In this document: piece after piece, positions 6,626 through 26,614 of the stretch
Position numbering within the stretch: position 1 is the first letter of the stretch
Layout of the letters: every line of letters begins with the position of its first letter
NCBI GenBank assembly: GCA_016931115.1
Contig: JAFGFM010000227.1
Location: forward strand, 1 to 36,496
Direction of reading: 5' to 3'
DNA from: Deltaproteobacteria bacterium
GTDB lineage: Bacteria; Desulfobacterota; DSM-4660; Desulfatiglandales; HGW-15
Length of the DNA: 36,496 nt
Position numbers and translations under genes: made by a program
The notes under the pieces: model-generated
Databases searched by the model: none
What the model saw: only the letters and a program-made list of their open reading frames with translations
Told to the model about the DNA's origin: nothing

Positions 6626-7389
6626 CAATATGCCCCTTTCCCTGTAAGTACCGCAGGTATGGTCTTAAAAAGGAGCTTTATGTCTGTCCATATGGACTGG
6701 CTTTCTATGTATTGCAGATCAAGATCCACCTGCCCATCAAAACCTATATTGCTCCTTCCACTCACCTGCCAGAAACAGGTTAGCCCTGGAGTAACATCAA
6801 GCCGCTTAAGGTCTCGGAGCCTGTATTTGGATACCTCTGATGGAAGGGGAGGGCGGGGCCCAACTATTGACATATCTCCCTTAAGGACATTAAAGAGCTG
6901 CGGCAGCTCATCAATAGATAGCTTTCTAATGATTCGCCCTGTACGTGTCAACCTGGGATCTTTTTTAATCTTGAAAATTAAAGACTGGGTCTCATTCAGG
7001 TTATCTAAATCATTCCTTATACGATCTGCATCAGTTACCATTGACCTGAATTTATATATGGTAAATCTTTTACCCCTTATGCCTACACGCTGTTGACAAT
7101 AGATTGCAGTCCCCCTGTCTTCAAGTTTAATAAGTATGACTGTTATAAGGAAAACCGGTGACAGCGCGAGGATCAATAATATAGATAGGATAACATCAAA
7201 ACATCGTTTAATAATAAGGGTGGATTTAACAACAAGATGCCAGCTGTAACGCTTGAAAATATAATACATGACAGAACGAAAGCGGGCAAACCTGCTTCCG
7301 CCTTTTGCATATCTGTCAAAAAGCCTGTCTCTTAATACATTTTCCCGCACACATACCCCACAGTAAAAATAATAGTCGAAATAAAACAA
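6625..7389 (-). CDS. EPS-initiating sugar-phosphate transferase (polyprenyl-phosphate hexose-1-phosphate transferase)
   Basis: About 254 residues. One hydrophobic hairpin-like segment (about 65-88) is followed by the bacterial sugar-transferase core: QQRVGIRGKRFTIYKFRSM, KLSIDELPQLFNVLKGDMS, GPRP (177-180) and PGLTCFWQVSGRS. The Asp160-Glu161 pair corresponds to the catalytic dyad of PglC-type monotopic phosphoglycosyl transferases. It is the short single-segment form, not the long WbaP form with four extra membrane helices. It would load the first sugar phosphate onto undecaprenyl phosphate at the cytoplasmic face of the inner membrane. The start is uncertain: TTG at 7389 has no good ribosome site, while a GTG at 7350 follows a GGGG stretch. 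Its stop is coupled to the GT26-STAS gene. Confidence 0.93.
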   Translation of the reverse strand: MFYFDYYFYCGVCVRENVLRDRLFDRYAKGGSRFARFRSVMYYIFKRYSWHLVVKSTLIIKRCFDVILSILLILALSPVFLITVILIKLEDRGTAIYCQQRVGIRGKRFTIYKFRSMVTDADRIRNDLDNLNETQSLIFKIKKDPRLTRTGRIIRKLSIDELPQLFNVLKGDMSIVGPRPPLPSEVSKYRLRDLKRLDVTPGLTCFWQVSGRSNIGFDGQVDLDLQYIESQSIWTDIKLLFKTIPAVLTGKGAY

Positions 7390-7936: not shown

Positions 7937-8794
7937 ATGAAATCAATCAGAGGAATGGTTAAGCTAAAGCATGAAAATGCAATATACTATATACCCATGG
8001 TCATTTTCCTGGTTATACTGCTCTATTATCCATTTTTCAGATGGCTTTTGATATCATGGCTAAATAACCCTGCTGATACCTTTGGATATCTGGCGCCTTT
8101 TGTCTCAGCATGGGCTATTTATCTCAGACGAAGAGAGATTAATGGTATTGAAATATCTTCTGCAAAATCAGGCTGGATCCTGTTCCTATCAGGTTTGCTG
8201 CTGGTATTACTTTACCGGATATATGACCAGACAGTATTTGCCTCTGTTTCTCTCCCCCTTTTTTTATATGGAGTTACTCTTATTTACTGGGGAAGAAAAC
8301 GAAGCAGATACATGCTGTTCCCATTCCTGTTTCTTGTATTTCTATACCCATGGGGTGATATTTTGAATACCCTGATTGGCTTCAAGTTAAGACAATTCAG
8401 CGTTTATATATCCTGTCTTATATTTATCTGTATGGGAATGGACGCTGCTATTTCCGGCACCCTGTTGTATACAGGACGATTTCTTGTAGACATTGCACCT
8501 GCCTGCAGCGGGTTGACCATGATGAATGTACTCTTATTTATGGGCGCTATCGGGGCATATCTATATAATGGAAAGAAGTCAAAAGGGATAATAATCTTTT
8601 TATCAGTTATACCTTTAAGTTTAATTATGAACACCATCAGGATATTTTTTACCGGTTTGACAGGGCATTTTTTTGGAGAAAAAACAGCCCTGAATTTTTA
8701 TCATGATATTTCTGGTATGTTTATTTTTGGTCTTGCACTCTTATTTTTATATTGGGAGGCATCTTTTTTTAACCGGGTTGATCAGAAAAAATGA
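7937..8794 (+). CDS. exosortase (PEP-CTERM transpeptidase/protease)
   Basis: 285 residues, almost entirely membrane-spanning, with about eight hydrophobic segments. The three catalytic residues of the exosortase/archaeosortase family are present: Cys190 in APACSGL, Arg235 in MNTIRIFFTG and His256 in FYHDISG. Exosortases cleave PEP-CTERM proteins at the outer face of the inner membrane and are thought to transfer them to a surface acceptor. The upstream gene supplies a likely substrate, and the downstream gene overlaps by four bases (ATGA). An alternative start at the ATG at 7955 follows an AGAGGA stretch and would remove six residues. The family assignment is strong; I do not assign a numbered subclass. 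Confidence 0.95.
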   Translation: MKSIRGMVKLKHENAIYYIPMVIFLVILLYYPFFRWLLISWLNNPADTFGYLAPFVSAWAIYLRRREINGIEISSAKSGWILFLSGLLLVLLYRIYDQTVFASVSLPLFLYGVTLIYWGRKRSRYMLFPFLFLVFLYPWGDILNTLIGFKLRQFSVYISCLIFICMGMDAAISGTLLYTGRFLVDIAPACSGLTMMNVLLFMGAIGAYLYNGKKSKGIIIFLSVIPLSLIMNTIRIFFTGLTGHFFGEKTALNFYHDISGMFIFGLALLFLYWEASFFNRVDQKK

Positions 8795-9663
8795 CAAAAG
8801 AACAAATAAATATATTTAAAAAGGTTGTATATCTTTTACTCGCTATAGGAATAACGATTGAAATCATCGTGATATACAAGGATATTTTTTTATGGATGAA
8901 AACAGCATGGTTTACCTATCCTCCTGACAGGTTTGGAATATTTATCCCCCTGCTTTTTTTGTTTATATTCTTATACAGGTTTATCAGAAATCCTATTAAA
9001 AAAATAAAGGGCAACAGGATCGGGTTCTTTGTAATAGTTAGCGGGGCTTTAATCTTTATGATTGGTATTTTTGCGGATATTCATATCATACAGGCAGCCT
9101 CACTTATTATCACCTGCTATGGTATTGTTTTGTATCTGATGGGCAGTGAATGGGGAATGATTATGCTTTTCCCATTTTTCTTTCTTATTTTTATGCTGCC
9201 CACAACATCTTTTTTAATAGAGTCTATTTTCAGTGTGCCTCTTAGAAGCATGACTGCAAAGATAACATGCAAAATACTGAATTCAACCGGAAGTGCGTGT
9301 GAAACAATTAACTGCATTTTATATGTTTTTAATACAGAACTCCCTGTTCAATATTACAGGGAATCCATATCATCCCTTATGATGCATATAATTCTTACCT
9401 TTATTGCGGCAGAGTTTATCTTCATAAAAAACTGGAGCAAATTTTTGTACCTGCTTTTACTATGGGCACCATATATCATAATCGCTCACAGTGTTTTATA
9501 TCTGGTAATGGGCTGGGTGTATGCATCAGGGAGTGTCAATCAATCTGAAATAATCTGGGCATACAGGAAATGGTTACCTGCCATATTACATGTGTTAATG
9601 CTTATTTTTACCTGGGCCATGATAAGAAAAATTACAGGGAGAAAAGACCATGTCAGCAGATAG
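8791..9663 (+). CDS. exosortase-like membrane protein lacking the catalytic Cys/Arg (pseudo-exosortase)
   Basis: 290 residues with roughly eight membrane segments. It parallels the preceding exosortase in several stretches: PPDRFGIFIPLL against NPADTFGYLAPFV, GFFVIVSGALIF against GWILFLSGLLLV, and YLMGSEWGMIMLFPFFFLIF against YWGRKRSRYMLFPFLFLVF. By hand alignment on the shared Met-Met pair, the active-site Cys becomes Ser192 (YYRESISSLMMH) and the Arg position falls at Leu236 (AHSVLYLVMG); no HD-x-x-G motif is seen near the end. It is therefore probably catalytically dead and may pair with or regulate the active enzyme. Start and stop are coupled to the neighbours (4-base overlap upstream, 14-base overlap with the EpsI gene). 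The homology is my reading and not a database result. Confidence 0.75.
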   Translation: MTKEQINIFKKVVYLLLAIGITIEIIVIYKDIFLWMKTAWFTYPPDRFGIFIPLLFLFIFLYRFIRNPIKKIKGNRIGFFVIVSGALIFMIGIFADIHIIQAASLIITCYGIVLYLMGSEWGMIMLFPFFFLIFMLPTTSFLIESIFSVPLRSMTAKITCKILNSTGSACETINCILYVFNTELPVQYYRESISSLMMHIILTFIAAEFIFIKNWSKFLYLLLLWAPYIIIAHSVLYLVMGWVYASGSVNQSEIIWAYRKWLPAILHVLMLIFTWAMIRKITGRKDHVSR

Positions 9664-11169: not shown

Positions 11170-12663
11170 ATGTTTTTTAAGGACCTCTATACAGGATTAT
11201 TTAAAAGCAAAACCGATTCACTTAAGCTCTTAAGCATTCGGTCTGCGATTTGGAGTCTGATGGGAAAAGGAGGAAGCCATATAATAAGGCTTGCCGGTAA
11301 CCTGATCCTGACGCGTATCCTTTTTCCAGAGGCATTTGGCCTGATGGCTACAGCCAATATTGTGCTTGTCATGGCAGAGCTGTTTTCAGATACAGGGGTT
11401 AAAACCGCAATCATTCAGAATCCACGAGGAGCTGAGCCTGCCTTTCTTAATACAGTCTGGGTAATAAATATAGTCAGGGGAATAATACTAAGCAGTTTTA
11501 TTGTGGCAATAGCCTGGCCTTTATCGGCATTCTATAATCAACCTGTTTTAATGAACCTCTTTTTTATTATGGGTATAAGCCATTTTATATCAGGCTTTGA
11601 AAATCCTGCGCTTCCGCTCCTGATAAAAAATTTCAAGGTAGAAAAACAGGTAAAAATGGAACTTATTACCCAGTTTGTTGCACTGACCACCACAGTTATG
11701 TTTGCATATTATATGCAATCGGTTTATGCACTTGCCATTGGATACAGTTTTTCAGTGCTTTACAGGTTGATAGCTACATATTTTGCAGTCCGATTTAGAC
11801 CTCGTTTTGTATGGGACAGGGAAACAGGAAAAGAAATATTTAATTTCGGTAAATATGTATTCATTAATACTCTGATCACTGTTACCGTCTATCAACTGGA
11901 TATACTGTTAATAGGTAAGATACTGGATATGACAACACTGTCTTATTATAATATCGGTAAAAACCTTGGCATACTGGTATTTACCTTCTGCAGTCAGGTG
12001 GTATCACAGTCCTATCTGCCTGCTGTAAGCTCGGTTCAGAATGATATTTTAAGGGTACAGCGCATCTTTAAAAGGACAATTACCTTCTTCCTGACCATCT
12101 CTATCCCTATCTCTCTGATAATGATAATATTTTCACGCGATATAATACAGATAATGTATGATCCCAGATATGAGCTTTCATATATCTCTCTTGCCTGGCT
12201 TGCCATGGCCGGGATATTCAGGATAATTGGGAATTTCTCCGGTGCCACTTTTTTTGCCCTTGGAAAACCTGCACTTGAAACATCATCAATGGCAGCAGGT
12301 TTATTGATTGTGGCTGTAGCTCTTTTCACAGGTGTTAATACAGGAGGGCTTTCAGGAGCATCATGCGGTGTTGCTGTATCAATTTCATTTATACCAGTTA
12401 TAGAAAGTTTTCTTCTTGTACGTTGTGTAAAGTTCTCTTTGAAAACTGTTATTGGCCCATATTTGCAGGTGTTTTTTATTGGCGGCATCTGCCTTGTCAT
12501 TCATATGATGGCTAAAACATGGTTCCTCTCCATGTATAACAACAGGATTTTATATGCCTTATCCATAACCATCTTTGCTGTTATTTTATCACTTCTTGTA
12601 TTCCGCTATATTGAAGGGCCAAATCCTTTTGGAGACAGGGGAGGGGGCGTATCAAAAAGTTAA
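11170..12663 (+). CDS. Wzx-type polysaccharide flippase (MOP superfamily)
   Basis: 497 residues with about 12-14 hydrophobic segments and the N-terminal pattern of the WzxC/TuaB type (SAIWSLMGKGGSHIIRLAGNLILTRILFPEAFGL). It would flip undecaprenyl-diphosphate-linked repeat units across the inner membrane. An aggaaata ribosome site precedes the ATG. Its TAA overlaps the TAA of the convergent GT2 gene (12660-12663), so two EPS operons meet tail to tail with no intergenic space. Confidence 0.92.
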   Translation: MFFKDLYTGLFKSKTDSLKLLSIRSAIWSLMGKGGSHIIRLAGNLILTRILFPEAFGLMATANIVLVMAELFSDTGVKTAIIQNPRGAEPAFLNTVWVINIVRGIILSSFIVAIAWPLSAFYNQPVLMNLFFIMGISHFISGFENPALPLLIKNFKVEKQVKMELITQFVALTTTVMFAYYMQSVYALAIGYSFSVLYRLIATYFAVRFRPRFVWDRETGKEIFNFGKYVFINTLITVTVYQLDILLIGKILDMTTLSYYNIGKNLGILVFTFCSQVVSQSYLPAVSSVQNDILRVQRIFKRTITFFLTISIPISLIMIIFSRDIIQIMYDPRYELSYISLAWLAMAGIFRIIGNFSGATFFALGKPALETSSMAAGLLIVAVALFTGVNTGGLSGASCGVAVSISFIPVIESFLLVRCVKFSLKTVIGPYLQVFFIGGICLVIHMMAKTWFLSMYNNRILYALSITIFAVILSLLVFRYIEGPNPFGDRGGGVSKS

Positions 12664-13673
12664 GTAAGGCTCATTTTTTTAACATTAAGTCTGTTATACA
12701 GAGGTTTGCCTGATATTAAACCATAATAATATCTGATCACCCCGAAAAGCTGCGGAAATACAATAATAATAGCATTTACAGTATATATTATTATATCTTT
12801 CCATGGTCTGTTAAACTGTTTTTTAAATTTGAAAATGCTGAATGAAGGCTTTACTGCAAACAGTAAAGCGAATATCAGACCAGAGAATACAAAACCTGAT
12901 ATGAATCCTGTAAGCATTATGATAAGAGGTAATAGAGATCTGACCAATATGCGCAGAGTCTCCCTGAACCACATTTTTTCATTTTTTTTAATATACCTGA
13001 AGGAGATTTCCGCATATGCATATCCGCCTCGAAATGCCCTTTTGAGATATTTTAAAAAGCTGCTCATATTGATGTCATGCATGGCCATGGTATGGCCTGA
13101 GCGTTTAATTAACCAGCCCTTTTCTCTGATCCGGTAACTTAAATCAGGGTCTTCCCCCGCAATCAGGTATTCATCATACCCATTCGCATCCTCCAGTGCC
13201 TTCCTGCTAATTAAAACGCCTCCACCAAAGAAGTCGCATGGCCCCTCTTTGCCTGCCCACTCCATTTCTGCAAGGATATGATATATGTTTTTATCTGGAT
13301 AGATTTCTTTAAGCGTTCCGGTTACTGCCCCAATATTATTTTCCAGTAATTTATGGGCATGTAGAAACCAGTCAGGGTCAATTATCATATCTGCATCAAG
13401 AAACTGTATTATTGGAGATGAAAGGGTAAGCCAACCAGCATTCCTTCCGCGTCCCGGTGTTGGGTGTGGATTGTTGAGTTGCATAACCCTTACCCCCTCA
13501 AAGCCTGTTGCCAGATCAGGGGTGTTATCAGATGATCCGCCATCAACATATGTAATATCCAGTAAATCCTGCGGGTAATTAACGGCCCTGATAGCCTTTA
13601 TACAATCGGCGATATGTGAGCACTCGTTTATGCCTATTATCACAATCCCAATTTTCGGCAGTATCTTTTCCAT
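12660..13673 (-). CDS. GT2-family glycosyltransferase with C-terminal membrane segments
   Basis: 337 residues. The GT-A domain (about 8-230) shows IVIIGINECSHI, YVDGGSSDNT, PGRGRNAGW, FLDADMI (DxD) and AGEDPDLSYRIREKGW, the later acidic/aromatic motif typical of processive-like GT2 enzymes. Two to three hydrophobic segments follow (LLPLIIMLTGFISGFVFSGL and another near 295-315), which anchor the catalytic domain to the inner membrane. It is the last gene of the Wza-to-GT operon, three bases after the preceding GT2 stop, and converges with the flippase gene. Sugar specificity is unknown. Confidence 0.9.
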   Translation of the reverse strand: MEKILPKIGIVIIGINECSHIADCIKAIRAVNYPQDLLDITYVDGGSSDNTPDLATGFEGVRVMQLNNPHPTPGRGRNAGWLTLSSPIIQFLDADMIIDPDWFLHAHKLLENNIGAVTGTLKEIYPDKNIYHILAEMEWAGKEGPCDFFGGGVLISRKALEDANGYDEYLIAGEDPDLSYRIREKGWLIKRSGHTMAMHDINMSSFLKYLKRAFRGGYAYAEISFRYIKKNEKMWFRETLRILVRSLLPLIIMLTGFISGFVFSGLIFALLFAVKPSFSIFKFKKQFNRPWKDIIIYTVNAIIIVFPQLFGVIRYYYGLISGKPLYNRLNVKKMSLT

Positions 13674-13676
13674 AAT

Positions 13677-14666
13677 TTATTTGCGTTTACATGACCTGTA
13701 TACTTCACACAATGTAGTCAGGATATTCTTCATGGTCTGTTTCGCGTTTTCTCTCTTATTATGTGATTTCAATGAACCACTATGCAGATTTTTTATATAT
13801 ACGATGGCATTCCAAATAAATTCTATCCCTAACACAGTAATAGCATAATACCAGCCATAAAATTTAAGGTAATATTTCCATTCGCTTTCAAGACGAATTT
13901 TTAGTATCTGTTTGCCATTTTCTGAAAATGTACTGTCCGATTTTTCAGCACTCTTCCCTCCCAGATGAATCACTTCTGTATGGGGATAATAGACCACATC
14001 CCATCCAGATCTTCTGGCTGAAAGGCAGTAATCCACCTCTTCAAAATAGAGAAAATACCGGTCATCAAGATATCCTATTGAATCCATTGTTTCCCTGCGA
14101 ATAAGGAAATAGGCGCCTACCACCCAGCCAACACGCAGTGGATATGAATGATTCCACCATGTATAATCTACCCTGCCAAAAAAGCGCGATTTTGAATAGC
14201 GGTCTGAAAGCCCTGTAATGGCAAGAAATTTATTTAACGGCCCTGGAAGCATTCGTGCAGATGGCTGCATCCTGTTGTCCGTGTCTGTAAGTTTGCAGCC
14301 AAGTATCCCGGTATCAGGGTGTTGATCCATATATGAAATAGTCTTTACAAGGGTGTTTTTTCTTATAAAGGCATCAGAGTTTAATAAAAGTATATATCTT
14401 CCTTTTGCTATCTTCATACCGGGGATGTTACCGCCTGCAAAACCTCTATTTTCAGTGAGTCTTATCAGCCTGACCCACGGAAAATCTGTTTCGATCATGT
14501 CAGCAGAACCATCCTTTGATCCATTATCAACTGCAATTATTTCAAAATCTATTCCCGTTGAGTTCTCTTTAACGCAATTGATGCAATCAGCAGTTAATTC
14601 TCTGGTATTAAATGAGACTATTATTATGGAGACATCAGGAATTGATTTGCTGCTATCTTTTAACAT
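13677..14666 (-). CDS. GT2-family glycosyltransferase, rhamnosyltransferase-like (WbbL type)
   Basis: 329 residues. Motifs in order are SIIIVSFNTRELTADCI, AVDNGSKDGSADMI, ENRGFAGGNIPGM, LLLNSDAF (metal site), and FLYFEEVDYCLSARRSGWDVVYYP followed by VIHLGGKS. This set is typical of the WbbL-like subgroup, many of which transfer rhamnose from dTDP-L-rhamnose. That would fit the dTDP-rhamnose reductase gene at 33845-34729, although specificity within GT2 is poorly predictable. One C-terminal hydrophobic patch (WYYAITVLGIEFIWNAIVYI) may touch the membrane. Confidence 0.9.
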   Translation of the reverse strand: MLKDSSKSIPDVSIIIVSFNTRELTADCINCVKENSTGIDFEIIAVDNGSKDGSADMIETDFPWVRLIRLTENRGFAGGNIPGMKIAKGRYILLLNSDAFIRKNTLVKTISYMDQHPDTGILGCKLTDTDNRMQPSARMLPGPLNKFLAITGLSDRYSKSRFFGRVDYTWWNHSYPLRVGWVVGAYFLIRRETMDSIGYLDDRYFLYFEEVDYCLSARRSGWDVVYYPHTEVIHLGGKSAEKSDSTFSENGKQILKIRLESEWKYYLKFYGWYYAITVLGIEFIWNAIVYIKNLHSGSLKSHNKRENAKQTMKNILTTLCEVYRSCKRK

Positions 14667-14686
14667 ATTGTAAATCCATATAACTC

Positions 14687-15592
14687 TTACAGTTCATGAC
14701 TTTTCTTATCCAGACTGCCTTGTACAAATCCCATTGTCCAGTATGATAACCCTGTTAGAAATAGAGGTAATGACCTGATAAACCGGAAAACGTGAAGCAG
14801 GCCTGCATTTACAATCCTTGGTATAATCCTGCAGCATTTTATAATAAAAAACAAAGGTGCAAAGATGAAAGGGAAAATACCTGATTGATAAAAACTTCCT
14901 GATTCATTTTTTCTGTATATTGCAACATATTTTCCGAGCAGTTTTTGATTCGCAAAAAAACTTTTACAGTTTTCCCTAAAGATATGGGAGACAGTAATTT
15001 CAGGTACAAACCAGACCTTTTCAAACCTGCTTATATTGATGCCCAGCATGACATCTTCGGATGCCCTCATATCAGGAAATCCCCCTGCCTTATAAAATAT
15101 TCCCCTGTCACAGAATAAATTACAACTGGGAACAAACTTTTTTACCCTGTTTACTCCAACCGGCAGAAATTCATTAAATTGAAGGTAATACTGCGCGAGT
15201 GCGATAGATTTACTCTTTTGAAAATCAGGAATTTCGATTCCTCCACCACCGGTTAAATAACCTGATTCATAGGCCTCTTTTATTTTGTGCAGAAAATTAG
15301 GAGAGGGAACAACATCAGAATCAATGAACACAAGTAAAGTACCACTTGAATGGCTTGCACCCAGATTTCTTCCTTCTGAAGGGGAGAGTCTATTTTCCGA
15401 TCTGATAATTTTTATAATACTGGAAGCCTCACACTGAGAGATAATTCTGTCCATACTCCCATCATCAGAAGAGTCTACCAAAACAACTTCGTAATCATCT
15501 ATATTTTGTTGATTAATTATTCCTTCGATTGTATGCACCAGTGTCTTTGAAGAGTTATATGAAGGTATAATTACTGAAATCTGTATGCTCAT
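14687..15592 (-). CDS. GT2-family glycosyltransferase
   Basis: 301 residues. The GT-A signature is ISVIIPSYNSSKTL, VLVDSSDDGS, NRLSPSEGRNLGA and FIDSDVVP (DxD). A hydrophobic C-terminal region (SGIFPFIFAPLFFIIKCC and another at about 275-290) suggests membrane attachment. It starts 13 bases after the GT4 gene and is followed after 20 bases by another GT2, as expected for repeat-unit assembly genes in one transcript. Donor and acceptor sugars are unknown. Confidence 0.9.
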   Translation of the reverse strand: MSIQISVIIPSYNSSKTLVHTIEGIINQQNIDDYEVVLVDSSDDGSMDRIISQCEASSIIKIIRSENRLSPSEGRNLGASHSSGTLLVFIDSDVVPSPNFLHKIKEAYESGYLTGGGGIEIPDFQKSKSIALAQYYLQFNEFLPVGVNRVKKFVPSCNLFCDRGIFYKAGGFPDMRASEDVMLGINISRFEKVWFVPEITVSHIFRENCKSFFANQKLLGKYVAIYRKNESGSFYQSGIFPFIFAPLFFIIKCCRIIPRIVNAGLLHVFRFIRSLPLFLTGLSYWTMGFVQGSLDKKSHEL

Positions 15593-15605
15593 AGTATGCT
15601 TTATA

Positions 15606-16838
15606 TCAGAAGGTTTTCAAGAAAAAATCAGCCATCTGTTTACAGTTCTTTTCAAGATCATACAGGTTTGCAACTTTCTTTCTTGCATTTTTCCCTATCT
15701 TCTCCTGCAGCGGTCTGTTCTTTAAAAGTAATTCAATCCTGTCAGCAAGTGTAACAGTATCTGATGGAGCGATAAGCATTCCATCTTCGTTATCATTAAT
15801 CAGCTCAGGGATACCTGCTATACGGGTTGTGATGCATGGGATCTCTTTTGCCATTGCCTCCATCAAAACTACCGGGACACCTTCTGCAAAGCTTGGAAGG
15901 ACAAATAACTCCGCAGTATCATAATAATATTTTACCAGGTCCTGCCCCAGTGCCCCTGTAAAGGTAATTGAATCATGGATGTTAAGATCTTTTGCGAGTA
16001 ACTCAAGAGATTCTCTGTCAGGCCCATCACCAATGAATGTCAGATTAAAAATTGTTCCACGCTTTTTTAGCAAAGCGCAGGCCTCTAATAGAATATGTTG
16101 ACCTTTAGCAGGGACAAGCCTTCCTACGCATAAAATAGTAGGGATTGCATTTTCAGCTCTATCTACAGGTGTGAATTTAGATATGTCAACACCGCAGCGT
16201 ATTATATGAAACTTATTCCAGTAACTGTAAGGTACAACCCTTATCAACTGGCTTTTACAGAAATGGCTGATACACCTTATCTTTGATGCCCTTTTTATCT
16301 TATCTGCTATTAAATTATTATCTATGTTATAGAAGATATCAGGGCCATGTATGCTCAGGCTGAATGAAACAGTGCCGAAACATGCAGAAATCATGGCAAC
16401 AGTAGCCGCAGGATTTGCAAAATGGACATGGATATGTTCCACCCTGTTATTAAGTGCCCAGTTCACCAGTATGCCTGCTTCAATAAAATAACCACTTGAT
16501 TTTAAAAGACCGAAATGCCCTTTACGCGAAAATTGACAGGTATTAATTAACATTGAATAATACCTGTGTGGAGACTTAATCAAGAGTCTAAGATGATCTG
16601 ACAGTATATTTATTTTCGATCTGTTTTTTATGTATAGTGTATTTTCTGCATCTCCTTTTTCTTCATCGGTCATTTTTATCAGCATCTCAGGTCTTCTAAT
16701 AGATGCTGTTTTAATATCAAGACCGCTTTTCCTTAACTCCTGAACCTCTCTGAAAATGAAGGTATGAGAAATAGCTGGGTATTCACTTGCAAGATAGGCC
16801 ACAACAGAATCGTTGCGAGAAGTCTGAATTTTGTTCAT
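15606..16838 (-). CDS. GT4-family glycosyltransferase (WcaL/exosortase-locus type)
   Basis: 410 residues with a GT-B fold. The N-terminal part has SEYPAISHTFIFREVQELRKSG, the opening typical of colanic-acid WcaL-like enzymes, and HVHFANPAA. The C-terminal GT4 domain has ILCVGRLVPAKGQHILLEA, FIGDGPDRESL and PSFAEGVPVVLMEAMA with the E-x7-E motif that contacts the donor phosphate. It is a retaining transferase, cytosolic or membrane-peripheral. The start is well supported by AGGTGA about six bases before the ATG. A 53-base spacer separates it from the unknown membrane protein upstream. Confidence 0.92.
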   Translation of the reverse strand: MNKIQTSRNDSVVAYLASEYPAISHTFIFREVQELRKSGLDIKTASIRRPEMLIKMTDEEKGDAENTLYIKNRSKINILSDHLRLLIKSPHRYYSMLINTCQFSRKGHFGLLKSSGYFIEAGILVNWALNNRVEHIHVHFANPAATVAMISACFGTVSFSLSIHGPDIFYNIDNNLIADKIKRASKIRCISHFCKSQLIRVVPYSYWNKFHIIRCGVDISKFTPVDRAENAIPTILCVGRLVPAKGQHILLEACALLKKRGTIFNLTFIGDGPDRESLELLAKDLNIHDSITFTGALGQDLVKYYYDTAELFVLPSFAEGVPVVLMEAMAKEIPCITTRIAGIPELINDNEDGMLIAPSDTVTLADRIELLLKNRPLQEKIGKNARKKVANLYDLEKNCKQMADFFLKTF

Positions 16839-17511: not shown

Positions 17512-18885
17512 TTATAAAAACCTTGGTTGATAAATCATTTTACCAATGCTTTCTAAAATGGGTATCTGTTGAACTTCTTTTTCCTCTAAAGACTCTTTAA
17601 TCAGTCCGGAAATTCCTCCAGATGCAACCATAAATATAGGATTGACCATTGCATTAAGCAGACTGTCAATCATATATAGACCCAGCAGTACTGAAAGTAT
17701 CGTGACTGGAATTACTTTTTGATTAAACAACTCATGGGGCCTGTAAAATTTCATGACTGCAATTATGGGGATAAGAATTGATGACATAAGAGCAGCAATC
17801 CCCAATATACCATTTTTCCCAAACACAATAATCCAGAGACCATCGGTGATTGTTATATCCTGACCTTCGTCATCATATACTCTTGATCTACCCCATCCAC
17901 CCCATCCAAAGAATTTTTTCTCGAGTGCCTTTTCGATAAGTATGTTTTCATTGTCAATTCTTGTCCATAGTGATTGTGCCCTTTCCTTATCATGCTTGTA
18001 AACGAACATGGCGAAGTTCTCCGCATTCCAGTAACCAGTAGCCCTTGTAGATACATAAAGGATCGGTAATAGTACAAGACATATAAACAAAATGTTCATT
18101 TTGATCTTTTTTGTTATCAGAAGAACAGTTGCTCCCATGATAAAAAGTGCGATTGCGCCTGTTGATTTGCATAATACTGAAGTTATCAGCAGTAAAATAA
18201 CAAGAATGGGAATCGGTATTCCTCTTACCTTTTTAAGTATACCGGTTACCCAAGCCCAGAGGCCGATCAGGGTAGCGCTTATCATCCATATTCCAACCAT
18301 TAAACCATGTTCCATGAAAACCATTGGTCTGAATCCGCCATACCTGATAGTCTGCACAAATGCGCGTTGATGGTATCCATAGAATATTCTATGTAATTGC
18401 GGGCTGAACCTGATCTCAAACCAGCATAATGGCATGTAAATAATGCCACCTATAAAGATGCCAAAAGTAAACTCTTTGAGACTTTCAAGGTCATTAAAAT
18501 ATATTCTTCCAATAAAATAGGGAAAACCCCATGTGACAGTCTGTGCCAGGGATTCTGAAACGCCATCATATAATCCAAGGTCGTTTGAAAGTGAAGAGAG
18601 GGCAGGGCAGATGCACCAAACAATCATAGGGATGTCGATAATTTTAAATCTGAAAGAAAACACACTATTGGAATCAAACATCAAAGCTGCAATTAAAACT
18701 CCCCAGCAGGTAGCTGACATTTTAGTGTAATCTGGAAGCCCTGGAATCGGATACTCAGCCATAGGAAGGAACATCCATGCAAAAAGGAACGATGTTATTA
18801 CAGCACGTCTGGGTGGCAATCTTGAAAAAAGGCCGATAACAATCGGTATCCAGCCAAACATCATTATGGGAACAAGTATGTTCAT
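17512..18885 (-). CDS. Wzy-like O-antigen polymerase/ligase family membrane protein
   Basis: 457 residues with about ten hydrophobic segments and one long polar loop (about 290-345) between late membrane helices. The loop contains SLWTRIDNENILIEKALEKKFFGWGGWGR, a pattern typical of O-antigen polymerases and ligases. Such proteins join lipid-linked repeat units in the periplasm (Wzy) or ligate glycans to an acceptor (WaaL). The setting between a Wzc-like copolymerase and glycosyltransferases favours the polymerase role. The ATG overlaps the stop of the upstream Wzc-like gene by one base (TGATG), so synthesis of the two partners is coupled. Confidence 0.85.
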   Translation of the reverse strand: MNILVPIMMFGWIPIVIGLFSRLPPRRAVITSFLFAWMFLPMAEYPIPGLPDYTKMSATCWGVLIAALMFDSNSVFSFRFKIIDIPMIVWCICPALSSLSNDLGLYDGVSESLAQTVTWGFPYFIGRIYFNDLESLKEFTFGIFIGGIIYMPLCWFEIRFSPQLHRIFYGYHQRAFVQTIRYGGFRPMVFMEHGLMVGIWMISATLIGLWAWVTGILKKVRGIPIPILVILLLITSVLCKSTGAIALFIMGATVLLITKKIKMNILFICLVLLPILYVSTRATGYWNAENFAMFVYKHDKERAQSLWTRIDNENILIEKALEKKFFGWGGWGRSRVYDDEGQDITITDGLWIIVFGKNGILGIAALMSSILIPIIAVMKFYRPHELFNQKVIPVTILSVLLGLYMIDSLLNAMVNPIFMVASGGISGLIKESLEEKEVQQIPILESIGKMIYQPRFL

Positions 18886-21638
18886 CAGCCTTTTTCTCTC
18901 AGATTAATGATTTGCTGCTGGATTATCTTGATACTCCTCACACGTGAGGTTTTAAGTATTCTCTCCGGCAATTCTGCCAGCGCTTTGTTTGCTGTCTGGT
19001 AGTTCGTATATATTCCATATATTACCGAGTATCGTTCTTTTCCTTTATATCTGTTTTTATATATAGATAAATCATCTTCCGACAGGGCATGGGCATGAGC
19101 AAAGGCCTGTAAATCGACCTTTTGTGATGAAACAATTAATTGTATTGTATAGAAAGACTGATCCTGCTTTAGAATCCATTGCTTGTTATTTATATCAAGC
19201 GTATCATCATTTTGTGAACTTTGGTTTTCATCACTGACTGTTTCTACACTGCCTGTCTCAACATTTGCTGTAGAGGCAACATATGATATCAGTAAGGTCA
19301 CCTGTACAAAGATAAAAAGTACAAATATTGATTTACATGCATTAATTATTATCCGGGGATTGATAAATTTGAATAATTTTTTGAAAGAGAGTTTAAAAGA
19401 GGAGCCTATAGTATTAACAGACTGCCAGGACATCCTGAATAAAGGATAGGGTTCATCCTGTTCAGGGTGCATTGTTTTAAGAAATGTATTCCTGACCAAT
19501 TCCTGAAAAGGCTGTATTACCCTGACAATAGTTTCCTGAAATTTAGTATTGTATCTGGGCGCCCCAAGATTTAATACTGCTGCAATCGCAGGGACTTCCA
19601 GCTTTAAGAGTGTTTGTCCTGCCATATACACATATTGATAATAACTGCGATCTGACTGTATAATGAGAGGAATTATATCTGCCTGCACTATCAGGAATTC
19701 AGCCAGATCGCTTATAAGCATTGGCATTGTGTCAATCAGGATAAAATCATATTTCTCTTTAACCTGTTTTATAACCTTTGATATCTTTGATCTGTCAAGA
19801 TTTACAAGCTCATCATCGCTCGGGAGATGCCCTGCCAGCAATATGTCTATCCCTCTTTCTTTATCGTGTGATATGCAGTCTGACAGCGCTGTATGGCCCT
19901 TGATATAGTCTAAAAGTCCTTTTTTATCTCTCTTGATATTGATCAGTTTTTTCAGGGAAGGATTTGCAAAATTGGTTTCAATGACAAGGATTTTTGAACA
20001 AAGTTTTGACATGGCATAGGCAGTATTGAGCAGGATTTCAGTAACACCGCTTTTGGCATCAACGCCTGTAAATGCAGCGATTTTTGCCCCATGATTTTTG
20101 CGTTCTTTATCAAACTTTATGGCAAGGCTGTGAATGGATTGAGCCACCTTGTTTGTGGGATCATCCATCAGCACCCGTGCGAAGGGTGTGCCCTTCATCC
20201 CTACCTGTAAATAATCATCAATAGGCCTGTGAGGAAGTGTGCCCAGACTATTTAGTATATCTTTTTCATTGCGGATCCTGTCATCAAGTATATCAAAGAG
20301 GACACACCCTGCTGTAATGAATCCAAATGCAAACATGAAAATCAGGATGATCAGTTTTTTAAGATTATTGCCGGAAATCATTGACTGACTATTTGCCATT
20401 CTTTCAAGTCTGATTTTACCCGGGGCCTTTGATTCCAGTTTTAATTCATATATCCTTGTGTCCACCCTGTTAAGCTGGATTTTCAGCTGTTCCAGACTGG
20501 TTTCTATCTGTTTGAGTGTTAGTTCCTTTGTTGCTATTTCAGCTCTTTTCTTTAACAGCAGGTCGCGTTCCTTAAGGATTTCATCCTCAATCATTCTTGC
20601 GGCATTCAGCTCTGTTTCAGCATGAATGATCTTTTCTTTAAGTTCTGTCTCTCTCTTTTCATATAAAAATTTCTTGGTATCTTCCTTGATGATATCTTTC
20701 TGTTCTTCTGTGTATTTCTTTATGTCTTTTATCCTTTCTTCCACCTGATGTTTCCCGGGGTTATCATCTGAGAGACCAACCTGTGAATCCCGAAGTTTGT
20801 GCAAAGACTCCTGGGCCAGGATATCGAGCTTTGAAACAACCGAGTTCTGAACAACTATCTCCTCTATATGGGCATCCAGTGAAAGCTTCTTTAATGTTTC
20901 AGCTTCCATTGTTATTGCTTTAAGTTTTTTTTCCTTTTCTAATCTATCCCTGTATGCCTTTTCATAGGATATCTGGAATTGGGAGGCATCATCATTACTG
21001 CCTGCAAATACACTGGATGCGATCTGTTCTGAGATCCTTTTTAATTCGATGGTCTTTTTTTCTATTTCAGAGCTCAGATTCTTTTTCTCACTCTGGAGAA
21101 ATGAGAGACGTCTGGAATCTTTCCCTTCTTCATCTTTCTGGTATTCCTCAGTATATACCTCCATGATGGCATTGACCATTTCAACTATACCTTTATCATT
21201 ATCTCTTAAAAGAGTTACATCTATGAAATGTGTGCCACGGGGTTGTTCTACCGTAAGCGTACCTCCAAGCATCCTGGCCGCGAAGGAGAGGGTCATATTG
21301 TCCGGTAAATAATGCTGTTTAATATCAGGAGGCAGCTTATCTATAGCCTTCTCAAGTATTTTAGGACTTTGTATAAGGTCCAGCTGCGTATTAATGAATT
21401 GATTATAATACCCCACTACAGATCTTTCATCATTGCGGGAAATAACTGATTCAGACTCAGGCAACACCACAAGCTTGCCGCTGACCTGATAAAATGAATT
21501 ATTAAAGATAAAGGCTATAGGAGAGAGTAATACAAACAGGCTTCCACCAAATACAACAATCTTGAGCCAGTGCCGCATAATAGTGGCTACAGGGTCAAAT
21601 GGTTTTTTCGGTTTTATGATAATATCCTGTTGCGTCAT
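18885..21638 (-). CDS. Wzc-like polysaccharide copolymerase with degenerate kinase domain and C-terminal periplasmic SPOR domain
   Basis: 917 residues. Layout: cytoplasmic N-terminus; TM1 about 26-46; Wzz-type periplasmic region with long coiled coils (about 175-405); TM2 about 428-448; cytoplasmic BY-kinase-like domain about 495-720; TM3 about 763-788; a polar linker; then 827-905, which resembles a SPOR domain (FYTIQLIVSS, ERYSVIYGIYTNYQTANKAL, LPERIL, SRVRSI). The Walker A site reads GVDAKSGVTE (525-534), without the expected Gly-Lys-Ser/Thr. Walker A' is LVIETNF and Walker B is FILIDTMPM. The Tyr-rich tail of active BY-kinases is replaced by TM3 and the SPOR domain, which in other proteins binds denuded peptidoglycan strands. 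The predicted topology puts the SPOR domain in the periplasm, which is consistent. It probably controls chain length and export with Wza and Wzy. Confidence 0.88.
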   Translation of the reverse strand: MTQQDIIIKPKKPFDPVATIMRHWLKIVVFGGSLFVLLSPIAFIFNNSFYQVSGKLVVLPESESVISRNDERSVVGYYNQFINTQLDLIQSPKILEKAIDKLPPDIKQHYLPDNMTLSFAARMLGGTLTVEQPRGTHFIDVTLLRDNDKGIVEMVNAIMEVYTEEYQKDEEGKDSRRLSFLQSEKKNLSSEIEKKTIELKRISEQIASSVFAGSNDDASQFQISYEKAYRDRLEKEKKLKAITMEAETLKKLSLDAHIEEIVVQNSVVSKLDILAQESLHKLRDSQVGLSDDNPGKHQVEERIKDIKKYTEEQKDIIKEDTKKFLYEKRETELKEKIIHAETELNAARMIEDEILKERDLLLKKRAEIATKELTLKQIETSLEQLKIQLNRVDTRIYELKLESKAPGKIRLERMANSQSMISGNNLKKLIILIFMFAFGFITAGCVLFDILDDRIRNEKDILNSLGTLPHRPIDDYLQVGMKGTPFARVLMDDPTNKVAQSIHSLAIKFDKERKNHGAKIAAFTGVDAKSGVTEILLNTAYAMSKLCSKILVIETNFANPSLKKLINIKRDKKGLLDYIKGHTALSDCISHDKERGIDILLAGHLPSDDELVNLDRSKISKVIKQVKEKYDFILIDTMPMLISDLAEFLIVQADIIPLIIQSDRSYYQYVYMAGQTLLKLEVPAIAAVLNLGAPRYNTKFQETIVRVIQPFQELVRNTFLKTMHPEQDEPYPLFRMSWQSVNTIGSSFKLSFKKLFKFINPRIIINACKSIFVLFIFVQVTLLISYVASTANVETGSVETVSDENQSSQNDDTLDINNKQWILKQDQSFYTIQLIVSSQKVDLQAFAHAHALSEDDLSIYKNRYKGKERYSVIYGIYTNYQTANKALAELPERILKTSRVRSIKIIQQQIINLREKG

Positions 21639-21699: not shown

Positions 21700-22740
21700 T
21701 TAATCCAAAATCTCATCCTGTATTATATTTCCAGTTATAAAGGTCCTTAAGAACGGGTCTATCTGCCTCAGGTAATAATTAAATGAAGCTATGCCTTTTT
21801 TAGGCACATAAATAATATCATTATCCTGAAGGGTCTGGTTTTGCGAAAAATCCCCATTCTTTAAAAACTCATCAAGATCAATGATAATCGGGCTTTTTTG
21901 TTCTCTCATATCCCTTATAAGGTGTATCTTTGTTTTATTTGCATTTTCAGTTGGCCCGCCCGCCTGATTGATTGCATCAAGAAATGACATGCCAGATGTT
22001 TGAATCGGGTAAGAACCAGGGTTATTAACCTCACCCATTACAAAGACAGAAGCATCGGTTGAATCAGGTATATAGATAATGTCATTATTGGCAAGACCTA
22101 TGTTCAGTTTCAGGTTGGCCTTTCCCAGAAGTTGAAGCAGATCTATCCATATGATCTGCTCTTTGCCCCTTATAATATAACATTTTGATAGAAAGGCCGA
22201 TTTGTCAACAGTAGGAAGCCCACCAGCCATGGATAGTGCCTCAAGTATGGTGGCATGCCCGTCAAGGTGGATGATGCCAGGATTACTCACCCGGCCTAAC
22301 ACGTACACCTTGTTATTCATGTACTTTAGCACTGTTACCATCACAATCGGGTCAGAGTAGAGTTTTGAATATGCCTCTTTAATGGATTTTGTTGCATCTT
22401 TGACTGTATTTCCGCCAATATTTAATTCGCCTAAAAGGGGAAGGGTAATCATTCCATATGGCCCGACCAGATGCTCTCCTGACAACTCCGGCCTGTTCCA
22501 TATATCTATTTTGATCTGATCACCAGGGCCAATGTAATACTCCTTTGCGAGATTTGCCTCGTACATCTTTATTATCTCAGGGGTTGCAAATGGAATATCG
22601 TCATTATCCATATTATTTAAAGCCAAATTATGGATATCCCCTGGCTCTTTTGTCTCCATTTTTGATGAGACACACCCTGAAAATATAATAGAGGTGAGTA
22701 ATATAAAACAGGCAATATAATCTTTTTTAATATTCAACAT
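21700..22740 (-). CDS. Wza-like outer-membrane polysaccharide export lipoprotein
   Basis: About 346 residues from the ATG at 22740. The frame is open to an earlier ATG at 22809, but the later start gives a clean lipoprotein signal (KKDYIACFILLTSIIFSGC with the acylated Cys about 23 residues in). Neither start has a strong ribosome site. A Poly_export domain (YYIGPGDQIKIDIWNRPELSG, then GPYGMITLPLLGEL) is followed by two SLBB-type repeats (VYVLGRVSNPGIIHL with LEALSMAGG, and VFVMGEVNNPGSYPI with LDAINQAGG). It would form the export channel across the periplasm and outer membrane, working with the copolymerase encoded 61 bases downstream. It is the first gene of the long minus-strand EPS operon and has a sigma-54-like promoter in front. 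Confidence 0.92.
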   Translation of the reverse strand: MLNIKKDYIACFILLTSIIFSGCVSSKMETKEPGDIHNLALNNMDNDDIPFATPEIIKMYEANLAKEYYIGPGDQIKIDIWNRPELSGEHLVGPYGMITLPLLGELNIGGNTVKDATKSIKEAYSKLYSDPIVMVTVLKYMNNKVYVLGRVSNPGIIHLDGHATILEALSMAGGLPTVDKSAFLSKCYIIRGKEQIIWIDLLQLLGKANLKLNIGLANNDIIYIPDSTDASVFVMGEVNNPGSYPIQTSGMSFLDAINQAGGPTENANKTKIHLIRDMREQKSPIIIDLDEFLKNGDFSQNQTLQDNDIIYVPKKGIASFNYYLRQIDPFLRTFITGNIIQDEILD

Positions 22741-22840
22741 TTTATTTATATATAAAACACCTGTTACTATCTGATATTCCTTATAAACTTCAATGCAAAC
22801 CCTGATCATGAAGTGTTTGCATTATCCCTTTTTTTAATTT

Positions 22841-23060: not shown

Positions 23061-23393
23061 CTAAAAGCTCTTAATTGCTGTATCTGTATCATCAAATATC
23101 TGAAAGACCCGATGCATCCTGGTCAATTCCAGCAGTGCCCTTATCTGGTTTTGCAGGGATGACAGCCTTATATCGCCCCCTTCATTGTTCACAACCCTCA
23201 GGCATGATACCAGGCTTCCCAGTCCAGAGCTGTCAATAAATTCCACCTCTTTCATGTCTATAACAATATTGCAGATTCCTTTTTTTACCAGGGTAGTTAC
23301 TGAATCCTTGAAGCCTTTTACAGAGGCTGCGTCAAGTCTGCCTGATAACTTTACAACGCCGGTTTTGTCAATAATCTCTTCATGAATATTCAT
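23061..23393 (-). CDS. STAS-domain anti-sigma-factor antagonist (SpoIIAA/RsbV-like)
   Basis: 110 residues forming one STAS domain: VVKLSGRLDAASVKGF, IVIDMKEVEFIDSSGLGSLVSCL, then LLELTRMHRVFQIFDD. The DSSG motif (54-57) carries the Ser that RsbW/SpoIIAB-type kinases phosphorylate in this family. The GRLDAA and F-[IV]-D-S-[ST]-G-L stretches closely resemble the second STAS domain of the GT26 fusion at 5075-6625. It is the last gene of a three-gene set with the RsbW-like kinase (37 bases upstream) and the PP2C phosphatase. A GGAGAACTGGAAAA stretch precedes the ATG. Confidence 0.93.
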   Translation of the reverse strand: MNIHEEIIDKTGVVKLSGRLDAASVKGFKDSVTTLVKKGICNIVIDMKEVEFIDSSGLGSLVSCLRVVNNEGGDIRLSSLQNQIRALLELTRMHRVFQIFDDTDTAIKSF

Positions 23394-23430
23394 TTTTCCA
23401 GTTCTCCAATCTTACATTGATATTAAATTT

Positions 23431-23859
23431 TTAATATCTTTTAATCATGACAAGATGATTTCCTTTATCATCACTGCTGTAGGTAACATGGTTCATAAAT
23501 TCCTTTATAAAACCCAGGCCTCTGCCTGATTCTGATATATCAGAGATATTGTCCATACTATTATCCGGATATTTGATGACCGCCTCTTCAAGGATATTTA
23601 TATTCATCGGTTTTCCATGGTCACAGATCTCGATTTCTATCAGCCTCTCTTTTAATGTTAATATGATTTCGACATTATTATCTGATTTACTGTTGTATGC
23701 ATGAATTATGCTGTTATTGATTGCCTCAACAGAGCAAAGCTCCACCTGGAATGATTGCGTCTCATTTAAAGGAGTAAGAGAGCATATCTTATTGATTGCC
23801 ATACCGGCAAGAGCAACATTTTCAAGATCACTCTCAATTATTAACCTGATCTTCTTCAA
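23431..23859 (-). CDS. RsbW-like serine kinase / anti-sigma factor (HATPase domain)
   Basis: 142 residues. GHKL ATPase motifs are an N box (EAINNSIIHAY, 45-55), a G1 box (EICDHGKPM, 77-85) and a G2 box (ESGRGLGFI, 110-118). This compact form without a histidine dimerisation domain is typical of RsbW/SpoIIAB anti-sigma kinases, which phosphorylate STAS antagonists. The start codon is TTG, supported by AAAGGG seven to eight bases upstream and no in-frame alternative nearby. No cognate sigma factor gene is in the window, so its second partner is unknown. Confidence 0.92.
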   Translation of the reverse strand: MKKIRLIIESDLENVALAGMAINKICSLTPLNETQSFQVELCSVEAINNSIIHAYNSKSDNNVEIILTLKERLIEIEICDHGKPMNINILEEAVIKYPDNSMDNISDISESGRGLGFIKEFMNHVTYSSDDKGNHLVMIKRY

Positions 23860-23881
23860 TATATGCCCTTTATTACCTGTT

Positions 23882-25069
23882 TTATTTCATTTCAAAGGCA
23901 AGGAGTGATATGTCATCATCAAATTCACCCCCGCCTTTCCATTCCTTAAGATTCTTTTCCACGTCAGTAATAAGGTCGTGCAGAGGCAGCCCCTTGTTTT
24001 TTTTGATAATCTCAACAAAACGTTCTGTTGAAAAGGTGATGCCCTTATCATTCGGGCATTCTATTATGCCATCTGAATACAGGATAAACCTGTCACCGCT
24101 TTCAAGATAAAATTCATTTTCTTCATATGTTGCATCAGGGAATATGCCAACAGGAAATCCGCCTGACCCTATGAATGATGTAGAGCCATTCTTTTCTATC
24201 TTTATGGGTGATGGATGTCCTGCCTGGGTAATATTAACCTGGCCGGTCCTTGCATTGATTACGCCATATACCATGGTAAAATACTGCATGGAATCATCAG
24301 AGGCTTGAAAACGCTGGTTAAGGTCTTCCACTACATCCTTTGGTCGTGTGTACTCATAGTATGGTGGTATTATTAAAAATTTCTTTAACGGACTGTCCTG
24401 GTTGTCAACTGGTGAAAGATATCTGCTTAATGTTATGGATAGAAGGGCAGATGGAATGCCATGCCCTGCCACATCAAGCAGATAAAAGCCGATGTGATCA
24501 TCAACAAGCCAGAAGTAATTAAAAATATCCCCTGCCATAAATGCCGCGGGCATAAAAAGCCAGTCAAATTCAACACCGGATATCATTGCATCGGATTTTG
24601 GCAGAAGACTTAATTGTATCTTTGCAGCAGCCTCAAGATCCTTCTTTATGGCTGCATAGGTATCAGCAAGTTTTCGGTTCTGTTCTTCCTTGCTCTTTTC
24701 AAGCTGAAGTATACGTTCGCCAATGCGTATCTTTACAAACAGTTCATCCCTGTCACAGGGCTTTACTATAAAATCATCTGCGCCTGCCTCAAGACCCTCT
24801 ATCATCTCACTTTTTTCTTCTTTTGATGTAAGGATAACAATATAGACATAGTGGCTAAGGTCAGCACTTCGGATCCTTTTACAGAGCTCAAGTCCATCCA
24901 TTTCAGGCATTATCCAGTCAGTAATAACAAAATTGATATTACTTTTCTGTATGATATCCCAGGCCTCTTTTCCATCTGAGGCCATTGTAACACCGTACCC
25001 CAGCTTTGAAAGAAGTTTTGCTAAAAGTACCCTTGAAGGTAAGTTATCATCAGCAATTAATATGTTCAT
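23882..25069 (-). CDS. response regulator with PP2C (SpoIIE/RsbU-type) phosphatase output
   Basis: 395 residues from the ATG at 25069. An upstream TTG at 25087 lies inside the predicted promoter and adds six poor residues. REC domain about 1-118: ILIADDN, phospho-acceptor Asp51 in VITDWIMPEMDG, and Lys103 in VKPCDRDE. A short coiled coil (about 120-160) leads into a SpoIIE-type phosphatase: MAGDIFNYF (Asp181), LLDVAGHGIPSAL (Asp199), FILYSDGIIE and the terminal FDDDISLL, which together supply the metal-binding aspartates. It would dephosphorylate the STAS antagonist when the receiver is phosphorylated. There is no Shine-Dalgarno before the ATG. The kinase that feeds the receiver is not adjacent. 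Confidence 0.93.
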   Translation of the reverse strand: MNILIADDNLPSRVLLAKLLSKLGYGVTMASDGKEAWDIIQKSNINFVITDWIMPEMDGLELCKRIRSADLSHYVYIVILTSKEEKSEMIEGLEAGADDFIVKPCDRDELFVKIRIGERILQLEKSKEEQNRKLADTYAAIKKDLEAAAKIQLSLLPKSDAMISGVEFDWLFMPAAFMAGDIFNYFWLVDDHIGFYLLDVAGHGIPSALLSITLSRYLSPVDNQDSPLKKFLIIPPYYEYTRPKDVVEDLNQRFQASDDSMQYFTMVYGVINARTGQVNITQAGHPSPIKIEKNGSTSFIGSGGFPVGIFPDATYEENEFYLESGDRFILYSDGIIECPNDKGITFSTERFVEIIKKNKGLPLHDLITDVEKNLKEWKGGGEFDDDISLLAFEMK

Positions 25070-25082
25070 GCTGGATGATATT

Positions 25083-25098
25083 TGCAATATTTGAGCCA
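25083..25098 (-). promoter_or_regulatory. candidate sigma-54 (-24/-12) promoter for the partner-switch operon
   Basis: Minus strand TGGCTCAAATATTGCA has GG and GC 10 bases apart and two differences from TGGCACG-N4-TTGCW. The predicted start near 25072 is only three bases before the ATG of the REC-PP2C gene, which has no Shine-Dalgarno sequence. The message would therefore be nearly leaderless, which makes this site less certain than its sequence match suggests. Confidence 0.5.
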
Positions 25099-25240: not shown

Positions 25241-26614
25241 TTACCGATTAAAAACCTGCAAATTATTCGATTTATTTAAAAGGGGCTCTGGATTATTGTT
25301 TTGACAAAGGGTTTCCACTTCATGCTTTAGGCGTAAAAACCTTTCCAGTTCATTATTTTTCAGGATCCTTCCTGATGGGGTCTTTATTGAAGCCGGGTTA
25401 ACATTTTTCTTATTATAAAGTACCTCATAATGAAGATGAGGCCCTGTGGAAATGCCGGTTGATCCCACATAGCCTATTATGCTCCCCTGCTTTACTCTTA
25501 CACCCTTTTTTATACCTGATGCAAATTTCTTCATATGCCCATATACTGTCTGATAGCCGTTAGCATGCCGGATCCTTATATAATTACCATAACCGCCTTT
25601 TTTGCCTGCAAACTCTATAACACCATCACCTGCTGCCATGATCGGGGTCCCGGATGGAGCAGCAAAATCAAGGCCCTTATGCATACGGGTATAACCCAGT
25701 ATGGGGTGGCGACGCATGCCATAGCCGGAACTCAATCGTGCACCATCAATGGGTGTTACCATAAGGGTCTTACGCACTGAATAGCCTTTTGAATCATACA
25801 TATCTATTTCACCATCAGTGGCCTCATATCTGAAAATGGTGATCGGGCTGCCATTGGTATTAAGGGATGCATATAATAATTCATCCCCTTTAATAAAATT
25901 TCCATTTTTATCAACTACCTTCTCATAAAGTGCCTCAAAACTATCCCCGGGCTGAATATCTCTTTGGAAATCAACATCATAAGAATAGGCCCTGATCATC
26001 TTAAAAAGGACTTCCATTGGCATGCTGGCATCGAGTGCAGCGTCATATAGACTGGTCTTTATTATCACTTTTGCCTTGACTGTCTTTTTCTTAAGCTCAT
26101 ATAAAATTTCTTTTGATGAAAATTTATTTTCAGGGGAACGGGTTACCTGAATCTCCCTTGTAAGATCAGGAACAAGGCTGAGGCTATGAAATAGCATGGG
26201 GGCAGGGGTATCAGGGGTTTCAAAGTTTAATATGATCTCCTGGCCCTGACGCAACTGCCTTGGATTAAATAGCTCTGAAAGAGATGATATAATGCTAAAT
26301 GCGTCTCTCCTGTCAATCCCCGCCTTTACAAGTAGTACCATGAATGTATCACCATGAGAAACTGGAATACTTTTTTTTACTGTTTTAGGTTTATGAGGTA
26401 TCTCCTTTGTATTTTTTACACCTGCTTCAGGTAATGAGATTTTTTGCGTGTTAACTATTGTTTTATTATCATTGAAAAGATGGAGGTTAAAACAGGAAAA
26501 AGAAAAAAGGGCCAACGCCACAAAAAAAATGGCGAGAAGGAGAACAATTATTCTTCTGCTGCGCCTTTTAGTTTCACTCAGACCTCTTATGGATGGAGCA
26601 TGATCAATAAGCAT
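25241..26614 (-). CDS. membrane-anchored M23 murein endopeptidase (MepM-like)
   Basis: 457 residues. An N-terminal membrane anchor (about 21-42) is followed by a linker, an OapA/LysM-like region (SHGDTFMVLLVKAGI, LFNPRQLRQGQEI), a mixed beta region, and a C-terminal M23 domain (about 285-415). The zinc and catalytic residues are present: His312 and Asp316 in MHKGLDFAAP, His360 in VYGHM, and His393/His395 in GPHLHYEV. Such enzymes cut peptide cross-links in the periplasm. It stands alone between the partner-switch operon and the divergent sigma-54 activator. Opening of the wall for EPS export or PEP-CTERM traffic is a possible role, but housekeeping cell-wall growth is equally plausible. Confidence 0.93.
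   Translation of the reverse strand: MLIDHAPSIRGLSETKRRSRRIIVLLLAIFFVALALFSFSCFNLHLFNDNKTIVNTQKISLPEAGVKNTKEIPHKPKTVKKSIPVSHGDTFMVLLVKAGIDRRDAFSIISSLSELFNPRQLRQGQEIILNFETPDTPAPMLFHSLSLVPDLTREIQVTRSPENKFSSKEILYELKKKTVKAKVIIKTSLYDAALDASMPMEVLFKMIRAYSYDVDFQRDIQPGDSFEALYEKVVDKNGNFIKGDELLYASLNTNGSPITIFRYEATDGEIDMYDSKGYSVRKTLMVTPIDGARLSSGYGMRRHPILGYTRMHKGLDFAAPSGTPIMAAGDGVIEFAGKKGGYGNYIRIRHANGYQTVYGHMKKFASGIKKGVRVKQGSIIGYVGSTGISTGPHLHYEVLYNKKNVNPASIKTPSGRILKNNELERFLRLKHEVETLCQNNNPEPLLNKSNNLQVFNR

Follow-up and report, generated by a model that had tools for sequence, protein, structure and literature searches.

Wzc of Escherichia coli K30, like related polysaccharide copolymerases (PCPs) of the PCP-2a type, joins a periplasmic copolymerase with two transmembrane segments (TMs) to a cytoplasmic domain with the fold of bacterial tyrosine kinases (BY-kinases). 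Changing its Lys540, replaced in the K540M structures, abolishes phosphorylation while a stable octamer remains (PMC8285477). EcpK/EpsV of Myxococcus is the precedent for a PCP-2 that works independently of phosphorylation with a BY-pseudokinase, a scaffold role has been proposed for EcpK and for HfsB of the Caulobacter pair HfsB/HfsA, and fused forms such as SMc01795 and VV1_2305 have been mentioned (PMC12004946). Both pairs combine a kinase fold devoid of catalytic motifs and Tyr tail with a PCP-2 of the Wzx/Wzy pathway. DamX, a divisome protein, carries its SPOR domain on an inner-membrane anchor and a flexible linker, and the SPOR domains characterised to date bind denuded glycan, which is enriched at the septum (PMC6895207). 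Here we describe a gene in a 36,496-nucleotide stretch of a Deltaproteobacteria bacterium of the order Desulfatiglandales (contig JAFGFM010000227.1 of assembly GCA_016931115.1, hereafter the window). The gene (18885..21638, minus strand, running from 21638 to 18885) has an ATG start and no internal stop, and encodes a 917-residue Wzc-type PCP-2a copolymerase with a pseudokinase, a third TM (TM3) and a C-terminal SPOR domain. We read it as a phosphorylation-independent PCP-2a that would be tethered by a DamX-like SPOR domain to peptidoglycan free of stem peptides, a reading to which we assign a probability of roughly 0.6.

The copolymerase, its pseudokinase and its tail

Hydropathy picks out three segments in the protein, at about residues 25-45, 428-450 and 766-790. 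TM1 (25-45; 21504..21566, minus strand as for all parts of the protein), which overlaps a helix spanning 16-44 in the predicted model, and TM2 (428-450; 20289..20357), also seen in that model, surround a large, mostly helical periplasmic PCP domain homologous to Wzc (46-427; 20358..21503), as in PCP-2a copolymerases. Wzc is the best match in both sequence and fold: a profile of eight homologues matched the Wzc structures in the PDB with E=1.3e-24, and a Foldseek search with the full-length model returned Wzc chains first (E 9e-22), followed by BY-kinase domains such as that of VpsO (target TM-score 0.80). Model confidence is high in the kinase-like fold and in the helices of the periplasmic domain; residues ~453-489 and ~708-818 are unordered.

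While residues 495-700 (19539..20156) correspond to a BY-kinase-like Rossmann domain by domain search, fold match and alignment, none of the three marks of an active BY-kinase, that is, the Walker A Lys in GK[ST], Walker A' and the C-terminal Tyr cluster, is present. The degenerate Walker A (524-535, TGVDAKSGVTEI; 20034..20069) reads TGVDAKSGVTE, and profile alignment places Val532 exactly on Wzc Lys540. Walker A' is VIETNFANP, which lacks DxD and does not conform to hhhDxDxR, and no Tyr cluster was seen after the kinase fold, where only Y696 and Y731 lie between residues 690 and 765; Y666/667/669/671 sit in a predicted helix of the kinase fold itself. Walker B Asp636 is kept. A deviant Walker A of the MinD type was ruled out, the signature Lys position being occupied by Asp527 (invariant) and residue 529 being variable. 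The protein is thus, like the fused EcpK-type PCP-2 proteins, a copolymerase with a conserved kinase fold stripped of its catalytic motifs. It differs from Wzc by Val in place of Lys540, the altered Walker A', the missing Tyr tail and the added TM3 and SPOR, and from the two-protein systems EcpK/EpsV and HfsB/HfsA in that its pseudokinase belongs to a single chain, which also carries TM3 and SPOR.

The degenerate domain is strongly constrained. Between the two species of the genus, dN/dS is 0.038 in the pseudokinase, 0.114 in the periplasmic part and 0.037 in TM3. Since the pseudokinase has the lowest value among the large domains of the protein, it is, as judged from this constraint, needed and not decaying, and it probably functions as a scaffold, the role suggested for EcpK and HfsB. 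Because the Lys540 change abolishes phosphorylation in Wzc, the copolymerase should work without a phosphorylation cycle.

The C-terminal portion begins with TM3 (766-790; 19269..19343), which is basic on its N side (six K/R and no D/E in 740-769) and acidic on its C side (no K/R and seven D/E in 789-818). By the positive-inside rule applied to these charges, the C terminus with its SPOR domain is predicted to be periplasmic. An acidic linker (791-818; 19185..19268) with pLDDT under 50 leads to the DamX-like SPOR domain (819-900; 18939..19184), which keeps the ligand Gln of DamX, Gln833 being aligned to Gln351, and is followed by Arg901 at the position of DamX Lys418 (functional residues from PMC6895207). 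The DamX NCBIfam model matches the tail with E=3.5e-4, and a three-sequence tail profile matches the DamX SPOR structure (PDB 2LFV) with E=1.9e-9, its best hit in sequence and structure alike. The Pfam SPOR model scores 18.5 bits, just under its 21-bit cut-off, and 23.3 bits in a six-frame genome scan. The predicted tail folds as beta-alpha-beta-beta-alpha, an RNP-type fold, with a core pLDDT of about 80. Both Foldseek and VIA (Z 4.8, 71 residues) put DamX SPOR first, and the VIA margin over unrelated folds is small, so the assignment rests mainly on the sequence profile. The lost Walker A Gly-Lys-Ser/Thr, the missing regulatory Tyr tail, and the third membrane segment with a SPOR domain in the periplasm, all put forward in an initial annotation of this DNA, are therefore borne out. 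Values of dN/dS, 0.28 in the SPOR and 0.47 in the linker, indicate a tail constraint that is real but weaker.

In a second genome of the genus, the protein has a counterpart of unchanged architecture at 91% identity, which rules out an assembly artefact as the source of the fusion. The window genome (a 5.18-Mb assembly of 240 contigs) has other SPOR proteins, but we found no tail of the same DamX-like subtype in them, and hence no local donor gene. This genome has one Amidase_3 gene, which could make denuded glycan.

Tail and kinase state among relatives

In what follows, G numbers denote the genomes compared, G000 being the window genome and G001 its congener, and L numbers denote loci. In a cleaned kinase-domain tree, the copolymerase falls in a clade of eight pseudokinases (support 99/99). 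All eight lack the Walker A Lys, with Val, Thr or Asn instead, and share an alternative conserved motif, GxDxxxGxTEIxxN, a changed Walker A' and the Walker B Asp. TM3 and SPOR are present in only three (G000, G001 and G055), which group together in a first tree (93/86) and weakly in the cleaned one (55/84), which left out badly trimmed rows. The G055 tail is a canonical SPOR that passes the Pfam cut-off (33.6 bits vs 21). The remaining five (G002, G080, G327, G437 and G285) stop after the kinase fold without a contig end nearby and have Thr or Asn in place of the Lys. Outside the clade, the Lys is also lost in the BY-kinase-like domains of L010, L018, L036 and L046 (GEGVS, GGGCS, EEGVS and GGGAS), so its loss recurs.

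A second PCP family of the order shares this arrangement, with PCP, kinase fold and TM3 followed by usually two SPOR domains, as in L076 (6314-9445) and L084 (6135-9212). Its profile matches 23 of the order's 85 genomes, which is a ceiling for the number of fusions: many matches reach the model end through the SPOR, some stop at the kinase and some lie at contig ends. Most sequenced copies keep GKT or GKS, and those of G004, G006, G007, G009, G010, G012, G030 and G045 keep a Tyr cluster; in G010, for example, KEGKTL is accompanied by the cluster DFQDFKYYKYYSYYGEE. Walker A' is often GxDxRKP and not DxDxRKP, the first Asp being changed. G237 (L099), from a different family of the phylum, has a single chain with GEGKT, LLIDGDLRRP, a Tyr cluster, TM3 and a SPOR that passes the Pfam cut-off. 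The SPOR tails of the second family are of another subtype than that of the window protein, the same kind of tail but not the same tail. The window genus carries this second type too (G000:C160 and G001:C104), with the P-loop GEGRST and without the Tyr cluster. The G000 copy (L085 9241-13737) has two SPOR domains and adjoins an AAA ATPase and an HD_5 protein, with no glycosyltransferases nearby.

These relatives bear on the model of the initial annotation, in which EPS export is localised by the cell wall instead of being tuned by tyrosine phosphorylation, kinase loss and SPOR gain being one linked change. In its favor, the two co-occur in G000, G001 and G055, and the genus' second SPOR copolymerase has, as noted, neither an intact P-loop nor a Tyr cluster. 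Nevertheless, since the Lys is missing as well from the five clade members that have no tail, kinase loss does not hinge on the tail. Moreover, SPOR copolymerases with GKT and a Tyr cluster, which the annotation had named as the observation that would speak against it, exist within the order and beyond, albeit in a separate family and in G237, with a different SPOR subtype. The window genome also retains, outside the window's contig, a separate BY-kinase with GDGKT and three low-molecular-weight phosphatase genes. Because the same kind of tail occurs on relatives with competent-looking kinase motifs, it is not in general a substitute for kinase control. As far as motifs tell, the presence of a SPOR tail and the state of the kinase are uncoupled at the family level and the "instead of" therefore fails, so that a linked change, which already appears contradicted at that level, is the least probable of the explanations we consider.

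The exopolysaccharide cluster

The copolymerase is encoded in the setting of a PCP-2a. Directly upstream lies a gene for a Wza-type outer-membrane export protein with Poly_export and SLBB domains (21700..22809, minus strand), while the start of a Wzy-like polymerase/ligase gene (17512..18885, minus strand), a weak assignment through PF04932, overlaps the copolymerase stop. Four glycosyltransferases (12660..16838, minus strand) and a Wzx-type flippase (11170..12663, plus strand), all identified by domain search, complete this set. Further genes of the cluster specify a sugar-phosphate transferase and an exosortase/DUF3485 set. The order Wza, copolymerase, Wzy is the same in G001.

Several neighbors deserve mention in their own right. 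Two stretches (5075-6628 and 23061-25087, both minus strand) suggest a partner-switch module acting on a glycosyltransferase: a WecG/TagA enzyme carries two fused STAS-like segments, with FVDSTGL retained in the second, a fusion kept in G001, and the cluster additionally has genes for a response regulator-SpoIIE phosphatase, an anti-sigma-type kinase and a STAS protein immediately upstream of wza. Two tandem exosortase genes (7937-9663, plus strand), also paired in G001, differ in that the first has the catalytic Cys (APACSGL) and the second reads ESISSL there; the second enzyme looks inactive. An M23 peptidase gene (25241-26614, minus strand), whose product we take to be MepM-like, adjoins the EPS regulatory genes and is kept in G001.

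Proposed wall tethering and its alternatives

We propose that the protein acts as the inner-membrane copolymerase of a Wzx/Wzy exopolysaccharide cluster with no tyrosine phosphorylation of its own. Its presumably inactive, strongly conserved kinase-like domain would serve as a scaffold under the PCP ring on the cytoplasmic side, and the third membrane crossing would place the DamX-like SPOR in the periplasm on a flexible acidic linker of ~30 residues. By analogy with the families concerned, the ring would contact Wza above it and carry up to eight SPOR domains. From family knowledge, these likely contact peptidoglycan, and by binding strands without stem peptides they would fasten the Wzc-Wza export complex to the wall. 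The complex would most likely be enriched where amidases act, that is, at division sites. Wall tethering may come in addition to any kinase control in this group.

Several observations weigh against this proposal. The degenerate site may still bind nucleotide, and the tail-less relatives in the clade manage without a SPOR. The SPOR of the window genus has a gap at the aromatic DamX Trp416 (a Trp in G055) and Val at the DamX Ser354 position, is scored below the Pfam cut-off in the window protein and is not listed by Pfam in the G001 copy. It also evolves faster than the remaining folded protein, with 74% identity between the two congeners as compared with 96% for the pseudokinase, and by these signs it is drifting. 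It could thus be a decaying remnant that no longer binds the wall, which we consider unlikely: a dN/dS well under 1, the open frame, the retained ligand Gln, a strongly constrained TM3 and the canonical SPOR kept in G055 all speak against decay. A stronger contender, if still less probable than our main reading, is that the SPOR anchors the Wzc-Wza channel to peptidoglycan in a general way, keeping it in place across the wall at any point of the cell, and does not act as a signal for septal targeting. In the phylum sample, the nearest other SPOR of the DamX-like subtype is fused, at the C terminus, to an inner-membrane IcmF/TssM-type protein of a type VI secretion system (L070 7352-11413, in G170), another wall-spanning machine, and two AAA/ExeA-like ATPases encoded by the window genome likewise terminate in SPOR domains. 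Recognition of denuded glycan, a product of amidases that is enriched at the septum (PMC6895207), nonetheless leads one to expect some septal bias from binding alone.

Each part of the protein is already known, and the combination was not found in the literature searched. A full-text search yielded no description of a PCP-SPOR fusion (a SPOR review, 10.1128/JB.00118-17, lay outside its scope and may list it), and no matching NCBIfam model describes one. Wall-tethered copolymerases may thus constitute an unrecognised and recurrent class, although we hold this broader idea tentatively, at a little short of even odds. At least two PCP-2a lineages, the pseudokinase clade with a DamX-like SPOR and the kinase-motif family, in which the SPOR domains after TM3 are usually tandem, would have gained a third TM and a periplasmic SPOR, and denuded peptidoglycan would determine where export takes place, with no dependence on the kinase cycle.

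In Gram-negative bacteria, it is an open question how the synthesis of surface polysaccharides is matched to growth of the cell wall; in Streptococcus pneumoniae, the capsule machinery is reported at the septum (PMC4574921, PMC10233549). The protein described here adds single-chain members to the newly proposed group of phosphorylation-independent PCP-2 proteins and, if our reading is true, a copolymerase with its own binder of denuded glycan would be a direct physical link between EPS export and the wall.

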